Origin: a bacterium
GTDB lineage: Bacteria; Vulcanimicrobiota; Vulcanimicrobiia; Vulcanimicrobiales; SCRA01
Direction of reading: 5' to 3'
Length of the DNA stretch: 30,156 bases
Assembly: GCA_004298675.1 (NCBI GenBank)
Contig: SCRI01000009.1
Span: 1 to 30,156 of the forward strand
Made by a program: the position numbers and the translations under genes. Of this stretch, positions 20,025 to 25,481 are shown one piece after another; position 1 is the stretch's first letter; each line of letters opens with the position of its first letter. The notes under the pieces are model-generated. The model was given only the letters and a program-made list of their open reading frames with translations, had not been told where the DNA came from and made no database searches.

Positions 20025-20954
20025 TCAGGCACCTACGAGGCGGCGCTCGTTGCTCGCGCGATCGTGAACGAGCGCCCCTTCGCGGGCCAAGCCCAAGACC
20101 CACGTCTCACAGGCCACGCGGTGGCGTGCGAAGCAGGCGCGCATCGACGCCGCAATCTCCATAGCGTTGCCGTCGACCAGCGCCAAGACACTGGGGCCGG
20201 CGCCGGAGAGTGCGATGCCGAGCAGACCGCTGTGCTCCAGGCGCAGTGCTTCATCCAAACCCGGCACGAACGCCGAGCGGTACGGCTGGTGGAGGCGATC
20301 CTGCATCGCTACGCGCAGGTGCGCGAGGTTACCGCTCGCGAGCGCCGCCCCCAAGAGCGCGGCACGCTGCACGTTGTAGACGCTGTCCTCCTTTGCGTAG
20401 GCCTGCGGCAGCACGGCGCGGGCCTGCGCTGTGGCGAGCTCCAGCTGCGGCACCGCGATGATGGCGCGCACGCCCGCGGGCGGATTGAAGCGCAGATAGG
20501 TCGGCATCGCGTCGCCTTGCTGCGCCGCCACGACGATGCCGCCCAGGAGCGCCGGGGTGGAGTTGTCGGGATGCCCCTCCAGTCCGCAGGCCAATTCCAC
20601 CAAACGCTCGGCGGGCGTCTCCAGCTCGTTCGCGGCGTCTGCCACCAGCAGACCTAACACCAGCGCCGCCGCGCTCGAGCCCAGGCCCTTGCCCAACGGT
20701 AGCGGGTTCTCCACGACCAGCTCGCCGCACGGCAGCTCGGCGTCGGCGCCAAGCAACGCGCGCATGCCGCGCACGATCTCGCCTTCGAAGCCGCCATGCG
20801 TCGGCATCTGCGGGCCGGGGAGAAAACGCGTGCGAAACGGCCCTTCGTCACGATGCAAGGTGGCGCGCAAGCGCAACTCGAGGGCGATGCCGACGGCATC
20901 GAACCCGGAGCCGAGATTGGCGCTTGAGGCGGGCACCTCGAAATCGATGCGCAT
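20025..20954 (-). CDS. thrB: Homoserine kinase
   Basis: A 309-residue GHMP-family kinase that phosphorylates homoserine to O-phosphohomoserine. N-terminal VPASSANLGSGFDAVGIAL and the ATP-binding loop PLGKGLGSSAAAL (residues 85-97) are diagnostic, as are the C-terminal GIALSGAGPSVLAL and the substrate segment EGHPDNSTPALLGG. ATG starts 3 bases after the thrC stop; GGAGAAG inside the end of thrC serves as ribosome-binding site. Together with thrC it completes the last two steps of threonine synthesis. Homoserine dehydrogenase is not in this window. Its stop lies 13 bases from the convergent binding-protein gene. Confidence 0.96.
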   Translation of the reverse strand: MRIDFEVPASSANLGSGFDAVGIALELRLRATLHRDEGPFRTRFLPGPQMPTHGGFEGEIVRGMRALLGADAELPCGELVVENPLPLGKGLGSSAAALVLGLLVADAANELETPAERLVELACGLEGHPDNSTPALLGGIVVAAQQGDAMPTYLRFNPPAGVRAIIAVPQLELATAQARAVLPQAYAKEDSVYNVQRAALLGAALASGNLAHLRVAMQDRLHQPYRSAFVPGLDEALRLEHSGLLGIALSGAGPSVLALVDGNAMEIAASMRACFARHRVACETWVLGLAREGALVHDRASNERRLVGA

Positions 20955-20957
20955 CGG

Positions 20958-22277
20958 TTACTTCTTCTCCTTCAGCATGGCAGAGAGCACGGCGTCGACC
21001 GACTTGGCGACCGGCTCCGGTGTCAGGGGCTCGACCACGGACGAGTCCTTGAGGACATGGCCGGTCAAGATGCAGACGACGTCCTCGCCGCCGCTGAGCA
21101 CGCCTTGCCGGCGCAGCACGCGCACGCCCGCCAGCGAGGCGGCTGAGGCCGGCTCGCAGCCTAAGCCGTCGCTGCCGATCGCCCGGCGTGCCTGCAGGAT
21201 CTCGTCGTCGGAGACGGCCAGCGCCAAACCGTCGCAGGCACGCAGCTCCCGCCGCGCCTTGCGCCAGGAGACGGGGTTGCCGATCCGGATGGCACTCGCC
21301 ACGGTCTGCGCCTTCACCGGCTCGAGGTCCGCGCCGCTCTGCCAGGCCTTGGCGAACGGTGCCGCTCCCTCGGCCTGTACCACGCACAGCCGCGGGAGCC
21401 GGTCGGCTAGGCCCAGCGCCAACGCCTCGCGGAAGCCCTTGCCCAGTGCGCTGACGTTGCCGAGGTTCCCGCCCGGCAGCACCACCCAGTCGGGGGCGCG
21501 CCAGCCACGCTGCTCGAGCAGCGCAAAGGCCACGCACTTCTGCCCTTCGATGCGATACGGATCCACGGAGTTCACCACCGCGACCTCGCGTGAGGCCGCG
21601 CCCACCGCGCGTGCCAACTCCAGCGCGTCGTCGAAGTCGCCCTCGACCGTCAACACGTGTGCACCGTATGCCAGCGTCTGCGCGATCTTGGCCTGCGAGA
21701 CGCCGCCGGCCGGGGCTAAGACGAAGGCTCCCATGCCGGCCCGCGCGGCATAGGCCGCCATCGCCGCCGAGGTGTTACCGGTGCTCGCGCAGAGTGCGGC
21801 GCGCGAGTTGCGCGCCGCCGCGAAGGAGATCGCGACGGTCATCCCGGCATCCTTGAACGACCCGCTGGGGTTGCGTCCGCAGTGGTAGACGTTCAGGCGC
21901 TCCACGCCGCCGAACGCGGCGCTGCGCGGTGCCTCTTGCAGCGGAATCTCGTTCTCGTCGAGCGAGACGATGCGCGCGGGATCCAGGTGCGGCAGCAGCT
22001 CGCGATAGCGCCACACCCCGCTGCGATCGGCGGCGCTGGAACCCTTGCTGCGCTCGCGCAGGATCTGCACCAGCGCCTCGCGGCCGATGCCGCGCGGCGC
22101 CGCGAACTCGAGCAGCCCGCCGCAGCGCGGACAGGCCGTGCCGTCGATCGCCTCGCCGCCACACCCGGCTTCAGCGCAGCGCAGTGGCTCCGGCCCGCCC
22201 ACTCCGTCCCAGCCTGCGCCGGTGCCGGCTGCAGCTTCGGGGTCGGCGCACCGCAGGCGCGCCAACGTCTTCTCCAT
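20958..22277 (-). CDS. thrC: Threonine synthase
   Basis: A 439-residue PLP enzyme converting O-phosphohomoserine to threonine. The PLP Lys is K142 in NPSGSFKDAGM; the phosphate-binding and family segments CASTGNTSAAMAAYAARAG and LPGGNLGNVSALGKGF follow. An N-terminal four-cysteine cluster (C34, C39, C49, C52) looks like a zinc ribbon, as in several bacterial and archaeal threonine synthases, and the length fits. ATG 22277 has GAGGAG (22287-22292) 9 bases upstream. The gene is preceded by the leader peptide and terminator described separately, and by thrB immediately downstream. Confidence 0.96.
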   Translation of the reverse strand: MEKTLARLRCADPEAAAGTGAGWDGVGGPEPLRCAEAGCGGEAIDGTACPRCGGLLEFAAPRGIGREALVQILRERSKGSSAADRSGVWRYRELLPHLDPARIVSLDENEIPLQEAPRSAAFGGVERLNVYHCGRNPSGSFKDAGMTVAISFAAARNSRAALCASTGNTSAAMAAYAARAGMGAFVLAPAGGVSQAKIAQTLAYGAHVLTVEGDFDDALELARAVGAASREVAVVNSVDPYRIEGQKCVAFALLEQRGWRAPDWVVLPGGNLGNVSALGKGFREALALGLADRLPRLCVVQAEGAAPFAKAWQSGADLEPVKAQTVASAIRIGNPVSWRKARRELRACDGLALAVSDDEILQARRAIGSDGLGCEPASAASLAGVRVLRRQGVLSGGEDVVCILTGHVLKDSSVVEPLTPEPVAKSVDAVLSAMLKEKK

Positions 22278-22295
22278 CGTGCCCTACTCCTCGTG

Positions 22296-22338
22296 AAACA
22301 AGCAGAGACGCCCCCGGCCTGTGAGCCGGGGGCGTCTC
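22296..22338 (-). terminator. Intrinsic terminator of the thr attenuator
   Basis: Read on the minus strand: GAGACGCCCCCGGC, loop TCACAG, GCCGGGGGCGTCTC (a perfect 14-bp stem, 22338-22305), then TGCTTGTTT. It lies between the leader peptide stop and the thrC ribosome-binding site, where it can only be useful if conditionally bypassed. Confidence 0.88.
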
Positions 22339-22362
22339 GTGGGTCCGCTCGATCGCGCCGAC

Positions 22363-22440
22363 CTACTGCAACGCCGCTCCCGCCCACAGTCCGAAACCGC
22401 GGGTAATCGTCGTAGTAGTCGTAATAATCATCGCGTACAT
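22363..22440 (-). CDS. thrL: thr operon leader peptide
   Basis: A 25-residue open frame, ATG at 22440 to TAG at 22363. Residues 4-13 read MIITTTTTIT: six Thr codons (ACG, ACT, ACT, ACG, ACG, ACC) and three Ile codons (ATT) within 13 residues, against eight Thr and four Ile in E. coli ThrL. The remainder, RGFGLWAGAALQ, is ordinary. Its role would be control by ribosome stalling rather than as a protein. It happens to lie in frame with a long open stretch antisense to glcD, which hides it from gene finders. A weak GAAGCG lies just before the ATG; a -10-like TATACT ends 10 bases upstream, so the 5' leader would be only a few bases long. Confidence 0.85.
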   Translation of the reverse strand: MYAMIITTTTTITRGFGLWAGAALQ

Positions 22441-22560
22441 CGCTTCGCACAGTATATCGGCAGCGGCAGCAAATTCCTTCACCCTGGCGGGTGATCTCTG
22501 CCCGTCGCCGCGAGCCGCCGCGCGCGAAGGCGCGACCGCCCAGGTGCGGAACACCTTGCG

Positions 22561-23988
22561 ATGCTGCACAGCGCTCCACTCCCCGCGCGCCTCCTCGACG
22601 AGCTGCGGCGCATCCTCCCACGCCCTGGTGCCGTGCTCGACGCGCGCGAAGACCTCATGGTCTACGGTTACGACGGCACCTGGTACGAAGGCTTTCCCCA
22701 GGTCGTGGCGATCCCCGATAGCGCCGAGCAGATCGCGCAGATCGTGCAGCTGGCCAATCGGGAGCGCCTGGCCGTGACGCCCCGCGCCATGGGTTCGAGT
22801 CTCTCCGGCGGACCGGTGCCGCTGCGCGGCGGGATCGTGCTGGACACCAAGCGCATGAACCGCATTCTCGAGATCGACGAGGTGAACTTCCTGGCGGTGG
22901 TGCAGCCCGGTGTCATCAATGCCGATCTGCAGGCCGCGGTGGAGCGCCGCGGCCTCTTCTATCCGCCGGATCCAAGCTCGATGCGCCAGTCGGCGATCGG
23001 TGGCAACGTGGCGGAGAATGCCGGCGGGTCGCGGTGTCTGAAGTACGGCGTCACCTCGGACTACGTCATGGGGCTGCAAGTCGTGCTGCCCACCGGCGCG
23101 ATCATCCGCACCGGCGGCAAGATGGTGAAGAACGTCACCGGCTACAACTTGCGCGCGCTCTTCACCGGAGCTGAGGGGACGCTCGGAGTGATCACTGAGG
23201 CGACGCTGCGTCTGCTGCGCAAGCCGCCGTTCTCGCTGACCGCCATGGCGGTCTTCGCCTCGATCGCGGATGCCGCGCGCTGCGTCACCGAGATCATGAG
23301 CGCGGGCCTGACGCCGTGCGCCCTCGAGATGATGGACGACGTCACGATGGCGTGCGTCGAGGAGATGTTCCACCTCGGTCTGCCGGTCGAGCGCGAAGCG
23401 ATCCTGCTCGTTGCCGTCGACGGCGGCCAGCGCGAGCTCGTCGAGGCGGAGATGGAGGCGGTTTCGGGACTTGCGCGAGCGGCCGGCGCCGTGGAGGTCC
23501 GCGTCGCCGCCGACGCCGCGGAGTCCAGCGCGCTGTGGCAGGCGCGCCGCGGCATCAGCCCCGCGCTGGCGCGCAAGCGGCCCAACAAGCTGGGCGAAGA
23601 CGTCTCCATCCCGCGCTCCGAGATTCCGCGCATGGTGCGCGCGGTGCGCGCGATCGCCTCCAAGTACGCGCTGACCATCCCGCTCTTCGGGCACGTCGGC
23701 GATGGGAATCTCCATCCCAACATTCTCTGCGACCGTCACGACGCCGCAGAGTTGGAGCGCGTGGGTGCGGCCGCGCGCGAGATCTTCGAGGCCGCTGTGG
23801 CCTGCGGCGGGACGCTCTCGGGGGAACACGGCATCGGTTTGCTCAAGAAGCAGTTCATCGAGCTCGACTTGGGCAGCGAACAGGTCGAGGCGATGCGCCG
23901 TATCAAGGCGGCGCTCGATCCCAACGGCATCATGAATCCCGGGAAGATCTTCCCCGAGCCCGGCGGGGTCGGCGCCTTCAAGTTGTAA
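22561..23988 (+). CDS. glcD: FAD-linked oxidase, glycolate oxidase subunit GlcD type
   Basis: A 475-residue flavoprotein of the FAD-binding PCMH/VAO superfamily, predicted to oxidise glycolate or D-lactate. The FAD domain (about 35-215) has PRAMGSSLSGGPVPL, PPDPSSMRQSAIGGNVAENAGG and the hallmark YGVTSDYVMGLQVVLPTG. The C-terminal cap domain (about 230-470) includes IPLFGHVGDGNLHPNI (catalytic His), GGTLSGEHGIGLLKKQF and the ending ALDPNGIMNPGKIF, all typical of GlcD. No strong Shine-Dalgarno precedes ATG 22561; a small hairpin GGTG-CGGAA-CACC lies at 22537-22549. The gene diverges from the thr operon and is followed 26 bases later by glcF. D-lactate or 2-hydroxyglutarate dehydrogenases of the same family are alternatives. 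Confidence 0.92.
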   Translation: MLHSAPLPARLLDELRRILPRPGAVLDAREDLMVYGYDGTWYEGFPQVVAIPDSAEQIAQIVQLANRERLAVTPRAMGSSLSGGPVPLRGGIVLDTKRMNRILEIDEVNFLAVVQPGVINADLQAAVERRGLFYPPDPSSMRQSAIGGNVAENAGGSRCLKYGVTSDYVMGLQVVLPTGAIIRTGGKMVKNVTGYNLRALFTGAEGTLGVITEATLRLLRKPPFSLTAMAVFASIADAARCVTEIMSAGLTPCALEMMDDVTMACVEEMFHLGLPVEREAILLVAVDGGQRELVEAEMEAVSGLARAAGAVEVRVAADAAESSALWQARRGISPALARKRPNKLGEDVSIPRSEIPRMVRAVRAIASKYALTIPLFGHVGDGNLHPNILCDRHDAAELERVGAAAREIFEAAVACGGTLSGEHGIGLLKKQFIELDLGSEQVEAMRRIKAALDPNGIMNPGKIFPEPGGVGAFKL

Positions 23989-24014
23989 GGTGCTCTGGCG
24001 AGGAGTTCGAGCGC

Positions 24015-25481
24015 ATGGATCAGCAGGTTGACGGCAGCGCGGGCCACCCGGAGGCACGCTACGGCGGAGCGGGGCGGATGAGCGACGCCACCGTTGCCGC
24101 CCACGAGCAGGCCGCGGCGGCGCTAGCCGATTTCGTCCCCGCCGCCAACGGCTTCAGCGGGCGCGACGTCCCCGCCGACGACATCTTCAATCGCTGCGTG
24201 CGCTGCGGACTCTGTCTTCCCACCTGCCCCACCTACGTGGAGACGATGGTCGAGACGTCGAGCCCGCGCGGGCGCATCGCGCTAATCAAATCCGTGGCCG
24301 AGGGACAGTTGGACATGCTCTCCCCGGGCTTCGTGCACCAGATGTCGGAGTGCTTGGATTGCCGCGCCTGCGAGGCCGTCTGTCCCTCCGGAGTGGAGTA
24401 CGGAAAACTGCTCGAGCCGGCGCGCACCCAGATCAACCGCGCGCTCGAGCAGCAGCGTGGACCGGTGCGGAACTTCGTGCGCCATCTGCTGCTGCACGTG
24501 CTGTTCGGCAACCTCGCCGTGATGCGCGTGGTCTCGCGCCTGCTCTGGCTCGTGCAGCGCCTGGGGCTGCAGGCCATGGTGCACAAGAGCGGTCTGGCAC
24601 GCCTCTTGGGCATGCAGCAGATGATCGAGCTCGCGCCGCGCGTCAGCGACAAGTTCTTCGTTGCGCGCGATCAGCGCTGGGAGGCCAAAGGCGCCAAGAA
24701 AGCCACGGTCTTTCTGCATGGCGGCTGCATCATGGCTACCGCCTTCGCCGAGATCGACTTCGCGACCGTGCGCGTGCTGCAGCGCGCCGGCTGCGAGGTG
24801 CTGGCACCGGCGGCACAGGGCTGCTGCGGCGCCATCACCGTGCACGCCGGCGACATGGACGCGGGGCGCGAACTGGCCAAACGCAACATCGATGCGTTCG
24901 AGCGGTCGGGCGCGGACTACTACGTCATCAACGCCGCCGGCTGCGGCTCCACGCTCAAAGAGTACGGCCACCTCTTCCACGAGGACCCCGAGTGGCATGC
25001 CCGCGCCGTGCGCTTCTCCGCCAAGGTGCGCGACGTCACGGAGTTTCTGGATCAGATCGGCATCGACGAGAACCTCGGCCGCATCGAGACCACCGTGACC
25101 TACCAGGAACCTTGCCATCTCGTGCACGCGCAGCGCATCACGCAGGCGCCGCGTAACTTGCTGCGCAAGATTCCAGGCCTGACGCTGGTCGAGATGAACG
25201 AGAGCTCGCTGTGCTGCGGCAGCGCGGGCATCTACAACGTCACGCAGCCGGAGATGTCGCAGCGTCTGATGGAGCGCAAGGCCAAGAATGCCGCGGCCAC
25301 GGGAGCCTCCTGCTGCGCGACCGCGAATCCCGGCTGTCAGCTTCAGGTGCAGGCCGGTCTGCGCCGCGAAGGCAGCACGATGAGCGTGCGTCACGTCATC
25401 GAGCTGCTCGACGAATCCTACCGTATCGCCGACGCCGTGCCGGCTCCGGCAACTAGCCGCGGTACTCCCGCCACTCGGTGA
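24015..25481 (+). CDS. glcF: Glycolate oxidase iron-sulfur subunit GlcF type
   Basis: A 488-residue electron-transfer subunit. Two 4Fe-4S ferredoxin motifs are complete: C61, C64, C67, C71 (CVRCGLCLPTCP) and C113, C116, C119, C123 (CLDCRACEAVCP). Two CCG (cysteine-rich) domains follow, with QGCCGAITVHAGD and SSLCCGSAGIYNV as core motifs, suggesting heterodisulfide-reductase-like clusters. It passes electrons from GlcD to quinone. ATG 24015 has AGGAG (24001-24005) at good spacing; ATG 24078 is an alternative, and the open frame before 24015 is a shadow of glcD. At ~490 residues it is longer than E. coli GlcF (~407), partly from an N-terminal extension. No GlcE subunit gene is present here. Confidence 0.93.
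   Translation: MDQQVDGSAGHPEARYGGAGRMSDATVAAHEQAAAALADFVPAANGFSGRDVPADDIFNRCVRCGLCLPTCPTYVETMVETSSPRGRIALIKSVAEGQLDMLSPGFVHQMSECLDCRACEAVCPSGVEYGKLLEPARTQINRALEQQRGPVRNFVRHLLLHVLFGNLAVMRVVSRLLWLVQRLGLQAMVHKSGLARLLGMQQMIELAPRVSDKFFVARDQRWEAKGAKKATVFLHGGCIMATAFAEIDFATVRVLQRAGCEVLAPAAQGCCGAITVHAGDMDAGRELAKRNIDAFERSGADYYVINAAGCGSTLKEYGHLFHEDPEWHARAVRFSAKVRDVTEFLDQIGIDENLGRIETTVTYQEPCHLVHAQRITQAPRNLLRKIPGLTLVEMNESSLCCGSAGIYNVTQPEMSQRLMERKAKNAAATGASCCATANPGCQLQVQAGLRREGSTMSVRHVIELLDESYRIADAVPAPATSRGTPATR

Follow-up and report, generated by a model that had tools for sequence, protein, structure and literature searches.

Is thrCB in a bacterium outside the Proteobacteria controlled by a leader peptide of the kind that E. 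coli thrL encodes? This question is raised by the region upstream of thrC in the 30,156-nucleotide stretch of DNA analyzed here (the window), for which the original prediction had proposed a thrL-like attenuator in an apparently non-proteobacterial host. The host assembly (G000) is a 3.03-Mb MAG that is 98.5% complete, and the similarity of its thrC to that of a named Candidatus Eremiobacterota MAG places it in the Vulcanimicrobiota (formerly Eremiobacterota), in agreement with that proposal. A search of the assembly for a 16S gene gave no match.

Organization of the thrC upstream region

Examination of the locus confirmed a 25-codon ORF rich in Thr and Ile codons, a hairpin, the thrC Shine-Dalgarno sequence and thrC-thrB, all in this order and at the expected places on the minus strand. 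The leader promoter contains a -10 box (TATACT, 22451..22456), read from the sequence and identical in two congeners, which ends 10 nt before the leader ATG as had been claimed; inspection of the promoter sequence revealed no good match to a -35 element. The leader ORF MYAMIITTTTTITRGFGLWAGAALQ (22363..22440, ATG at 22440, stop codon TAG at 22365-22363) was delineated by ORF calling, comparison with congeners and shuffles. Its codons 5-13 (22402..22428), ATT ATT ACG ACT ACT ACG ACG ATT ACC, form an uninterrupted Ile/Thr run (IITTTTTIT) and represent the control codons. The leader had been described as sitting inside a long antisense frame over glcD. This frame does exist, spans 564 aa (22363-24057, minus strand, ORF list) and has the leader as its in-frame end, but the leader itself lies outside glcD, in the intergenic gap between thrC and the divergent glcD-like gene (start 22561; 502.6 bits, under the NCBIfam cut-off of 567.9).

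The leader ORF is followed by a predicted intrinsic terminator, the hairpin GAGACGCCCCCGGCTCACAGGCCGGGGGCGTCTC (22305..22338, minus strand), which was identified by folding and scores as terminator-like. With 15 contiguous pairs and a 4-nt loop it is one pair longer than originally counted, and the sequence directly 3' of it, TGCTTGTTTC, constitutes a tail that is T-rich as predicted but imperfect. The Shine-Dalgarno sequence of thrC (GAGGAG, 22287..22292) is located outside the hairpin and precedes, on the same strand, thrC (threonine synthase, 20958..22277; NCBIfam TIGR00260, 259.8 bits, cut-off 167.1) and thrB (homoserine kinase, 20025..20954; NCBIfam TIGR00191, 216 bits, cut-off 168.25).

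The divergent region between thrC and glcD also harbors a perfect palindrome, TCACCC-N4-GGGTGA (22479..22494), just upstream of the -35 position. It occurs only once in the host assembly, is present in the congeners L003 and L004 and may serve as an operator or activator site.

Threonine leaders in related genomes

Comparison with related genomes revealed that both the Thr run and the hairpin are kept upstream of thrC, and this conservation supports the reading of the locus as a thrL-like attenuator of thrCB, which survives the check on relatives that had been suggested with it. In two congeners thrC is preceded by the leader MYCTIITTTTTTITRSQGLWAGAALR with a near-identical terminator, synonymous changes in Thr codons and one extra Thr codon, while the contig of a third congener ends too early upstream of thrC to show the leader region. 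In nine genomes from other genera, thrC is preceded by a Thr-run leader together with a terminator; the other family of the order has, for instance, MISAFVSTTSTTTTTTTTVVRCRVDVG and MTIFGLAATTTTTTTTLRAFGVGLM at this position, and a degenerate Thr run is found there in three more genomes (e.g. MYASAMISTSQTTVTST). Another 13 Thr-run leaders precede hom (homoserine dehydrogenase) instead of thrC. In the genus of G004, thrC is mostly located downstream of ilvD and a Thr/Ile leader such as MPALCVIMTTTITTTTTLGEGRSGSTSA precedes hom. Outside the order, 30 loci with thrC-like genes, 27 of them with several hundred bases of upstream sequence, yielded no Thr leader ahead of the gene.

The thrC leaders L048, L049 and L050 (genomes G052, G007 and G046) have a degenerate run (MISTSQTTVTST and similar) and an intact terminator. 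Their runs may be in decay or may confer an altered sensitivity.

At the RNA level, the hairpin and the T-rich tail are common to the leaders of the relatives. A consensus structure computed for 12 thrC leaders retained the terminator hairpin and contained six pairs with changes on both sides between clades, mainly within the terminator. The RNA segment GGTGT(A/T)GGGTTGACGTA is conserved in the sister family although its reading frame varies (FGVGLT vs RCRVDVG), which suggests that selection acts on RNA pairing and not on the peptide.

The composition of these runs bears on the amino acid that is sensed, for which both Thr and Ile had been put forward. Ile derives from Thr and three Ile codons are part of the run, so that Ile instead of Thr might be the main signal; the mixed runs of the window and of its congeners (IITTTTTTIT) are in line with this, as is the run of E. 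coli thrL, which is likewise a mixture of Thr and Ile codons. The thrC leaders of the sister family, however, mostly consist of Thr runs without Ile, and the Ile-run leaders of relatives precede ilvA, not thrC. With Ile being scarce or absent in the runs of most thrC relatives, isoleucine sensing is at best secondary, and we consider Ile very unlikely to be the main signal. Thr, the constant codon, is the part of the original assignment that holds, and tRNA-Ile perhaps makes a smaller contribution to the attenuation of thrCB.

Relationship to E. coli thrL

Like E. coli thrL (RF00506), the window combines a Thr/Ile run in a short leader ORF with a terminator before thr genes and an alternative pairing, the latter being predicted for the window. 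In contrast to thrL, the leader precedes thrC-thrB without thrA (thrC or hom in the relatives), its start codon follows the -10 box by 10 nt and its host belongs to a different phylum. A search of 601 bases with the Rfam model RF00506 (Thr_leader) yielded 25.1 bits (E 0.018) at a gathering score of 55, and the leader is therefore not a member of this family.

Convergent and ancient origins had both been considered for the leader. Descent from a common ancestor with gamma-proteobacterial thrL, by inheritance or transfer and not by convergence, would be compatible with the attenuator mechanism, and the weak RF00506 match does span the full model. The score, however, is far under the gathering score, the gene set differs, the search upstream of thrC-like genes outside the order detected no such leader, and the closest RNA relatives to emerge are same-lineage leaders that carry other codons. 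Homology with thrL is, in our estimation, very unlikely. The Thr_leader score below the cut-off favors an independent origin, and the attenuator of the window has probably evolved independently, as a variant form.

Start of the leader ORF

In 44 of 50 related leaders a -10-like box ends 6-12 nt before the start codon, compared with 10 nt in the window; the box was chosen automatically as the best promoter-like match and is misplaced in several of the remaining six. A Shine-Dalgarno-like motif upstream of the leader start was apparent in three of the 50. The promoter spacing and the usual absence of a Shine-Dalgarno sequence suggest that translation of the leader is probably leaderless. The nearly leaderless start initially noted for the window was therefore correct with respect to promoter spacing, but it is a rule across the whole leader set and not a quirk of this locus.

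Leaderless leader ORFs have precedents in mycobacteria (Cys) and S. meliloti (Trp) and are thus not in themselves a novelty. The mycobacterial polycysteine ORF attenuators (Canestrari 2020, cited in PMC13236596) resemble the window, where the start is probably leaderless, in that a leaderless ORF carries a run of codons for the sensed amino acid, but differ in that they sense Cys and, according to PMC13236596, act by translation attenuation. Conserved terminator hairpins were not seen in mycobacterial cys leaders (PMC1262725). In S. meliloti the leader ORF of trpL has its ATG at the very 5' end of the RNA (PMC7298713); like the probable arrangement in the window, trpL joins a leaderless ORF to transcription attenuation, but it responds to Trp, belongs to an alpha-proteobacterium and gives rise to an RNA that also acts in trans. 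The branched-chain amino acid (BCAA) attenuator of M. tuberculosis ilvB1NC (PMC13236596) parallels the arrangement proposed here with a stalled ribosome, an antiterminator and an intrinsic terminator outside the Proteobacteria, and is distinguished from it by a 166-nt leader, BCAA codons and its actinobacterial host. Cys and Phe leader ORFs have been described as well (PMC8632094). A survey of 2010 regarded leader-peptide systems as demonstrated in Proteobacteria and Actinobacteria alone and extended them to the Firmicutes (PMC2965389).

Predicted alternative folds of the leader RNA and proposed mechanism

Folding with a masked ribosome placed the 5' strand of a predicted antiterminator (region 2) at about 22370..22386 on the minus strand, within leader codons 19-24 and beginning about 15 bases past the last Thr codon. 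Region 3 (22322..22338, minus strand), the 5' arm of the terminator, is common to antiterminator and terminator. When the ribosome was masked at the Thr run, region 2 was free and predicted to pair with region 3 (about 14.6 expected pairs and -34.5 kcal/mol with the polymerase just past region 3), and masking at the stop codon yielded only the terminator. Once region 4 is transcribed, the terminator is the more stable structure in every ribosome state, and the choice between the two folds must therefore be kinetic. The equilibrium fold without a ribosome also favors the 2:3 pairing once region 3 has been made, which lends little weight to a protective 1:2 hairpin.

For the window leader alone, the 2:3 complementarity was not above that of shuffled sequences (z -0.84, p 0.20). 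Over 50 leaders the mean z for this complementarity was -2.1, with p below 0.05 in 54% of them. In two groups of relatives the antiterminator helix was paired in 96% and 88% of cells, compared with 30-58% for slid versions, and column pair counts in these groups detected no antiterminator covariation above control. For the window leader the antiterminator is therefore plausible, with support that comes from the leader set as a whole.

Based on folding and comparison, thrCB is very probably under the control of a ribosome-mediated transcription attenuator that answers to charged tRNA-Thr. Transcription would start a few bases upstream of the leader start codon, and the ribosome would load straight onto the nearly leaderless end of the RNA. 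With Thr plentiful, the ribosome would reach the stop codon and cover region 2 (codons 19-24), leaving region 3 to pair with region 4 and transcription to terminate before thrC. With Thr in short supply, it would stall at the Thr codons, short of region 2, which would then pair with region 3 as soon as the latter is made and pre-empt the terminator. The resulting read-through would allow thrCB to be transcribed and to be translated from its own Shine-Dalgarno sequence.

The combination of leader ORF and hairpin ahead of thrC is also compatible with a translational mode, in which the leader alters access to the thrC ribosome-binding site and not termination. This mode appears highly unlikely, as the Shine-Dalgarno sequence (22292-22287) is not part of the hairpin, which itself is terminator-like and is shared, together with its T-rich tail, by the relatives.

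Among short ORFs in the 300 nt upstream of thrC, the best 9-residue stretch consists of Thr or Ile in all nine positions, while 5000 dinucleotide-preserving shuffles of the thrC upstream region reached a maximum of six and never seven. No other short ORF on either strand of the 30-kb window attains seven Thr/Ile per nine residues, and the fold of the leader RNA surpasses that of shuffles (z -3.3). Even though the leader does end a long antisense open frame, the notion of a chance Thr/Ile-rich ORF in the glcD antisense frame next to an ordinary constitutive terminator, with no regulation involved, is extremely unlikely to hold, considering that the leader resides in the intergenic gap, that none of the shuffles came close and that the run is kept before thrC or hom in about 25 genomes.

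Leaders of other amino acid pathways

The attenuator proposed for thrCB has counterparts in other pathways. A covariance model built solely from thrC leaders (R1) and searched across the order matched leaders with the same layout and other codons. These comprised Ile runs before ilvA, Leu/Val/Ile runs before ilvB and ilvC, aromatic runs before aroF, aroA and pheA, as well as Met/Cys runs before hom, metY and sulfonate-type genes; Met/Cys leaders of metB and cysI were added by later searches. The host has, besides the thrC leader, five short leader ORFs with terminators (L088, L089, L090, L091 and L092), which precede aroF (MFTSPRSYFAYWYFTDAHRRSG), ilvB (MASTMSSQILVVSLILVRLEGGRWG), leuA (MRMQLLGRLLLTDGVIRRSG), ilvE (MYRSRALLPVIILLSRFARSR) and, in the case of an ORF containing Met/Cys, a sodium/solute symporter gene. 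In f3, a sister family within the class, aroF was preceded by an aromatic leader and hom by a Cys/Met leader. The codon class corresponded to the pathway in 46 of 49 leaders, compared with at most 25 in 20000 label permutations, a figure that is descriptive since the leaders were chosen by visual curation and hom was assigned to a Thr or a Met group only after its leaders had been seen.

A second model (R2) had a match at E 0.01 or better in 93 of the 149 genomes of the phylum. The R2 matches inspected in distant families appear to be plain terminators. The weak candidates L137, L140, L143, L147, L148, L158 and L162 from distant families resemble ordinary terminators or coding sequence, and the weak model matches L068 and L081 were dropped as not leader-like.

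Several genomes carry a Thr leader at thrC and a Met/Cys leader at hom about 2 kb away. On contig 23 of G023 (76265-78566; L025 and L069), a Thr-run leader precedes thrC, and hom with its Met/Cys-run leader follows about 2 kb downstream.

Leaders with Met/Cys runs (L072, L074, L165, L181, L175, L069, L079, L083, L086, L138, L154 and L178) were observed before metY, metB, hom and genes encoding sulfonate-type binding proteins and sulfite reductase. From their sequences, they are apparent methionine/cysteine attenuators. RNA-level control of methionine genes has been listed as riboswitch-based (PMC1262725). Our literature search, for which subscription journals were mostly outside reach, found neither Thr attenuation in Vulcanimicrobiota nor methionine-codon attenuators.

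Two leaders precede genes of other kinds. A Tyr-run leader, MMLVAIGTAYYYYGRFEMNRPGVPLP, with a terminator (L066:1501-1638, G021) is located upstream of a gene encoding a 262-aa protein, which has no Pfam or NCBIfam match and by eye resembles a TenA/CADD-type helical protein. A Cys-run leader (MCCCLCR; L176, G030) precedes a gene that by eye resembles a peroxiredoxin gene.

Overall, we consider it reasonably likely that in this order of the Vulcanimicrobiota, and partly in the class, much of amino acid biosynthesis is under the control of leaderless leader-ORF attenuators of similar layout with pathway-matched codons, including Met/Cys leaders that precede metY, metB, hom and sulfur-uptake genes.

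Significance

The window represents a familiar type of control that now appears in a new phylum, in a variant form. Short and probably leaderless leader ORFs such as this one are easily overlooked by standard annotation. Vulcanimicrobium alpinum WC8-2, a relative that has been brought into culture and whose 3.50-Mb genome is gap-free (PMC9758169), makes the predictions directly testable. Of greater interest than the single thrCB attenuator is its membership in the set as a whole, which adds leader-peptide attenuators to a little-studied phylum where they span many pathways and occur several to a genome. How attenuators originate and are retuned can thereby be compared within one lineage and, where a Thr leader at thrC is accompanied by a Met/Cys leader at a nearby hom, the logic of the branch point can be read from the codons.
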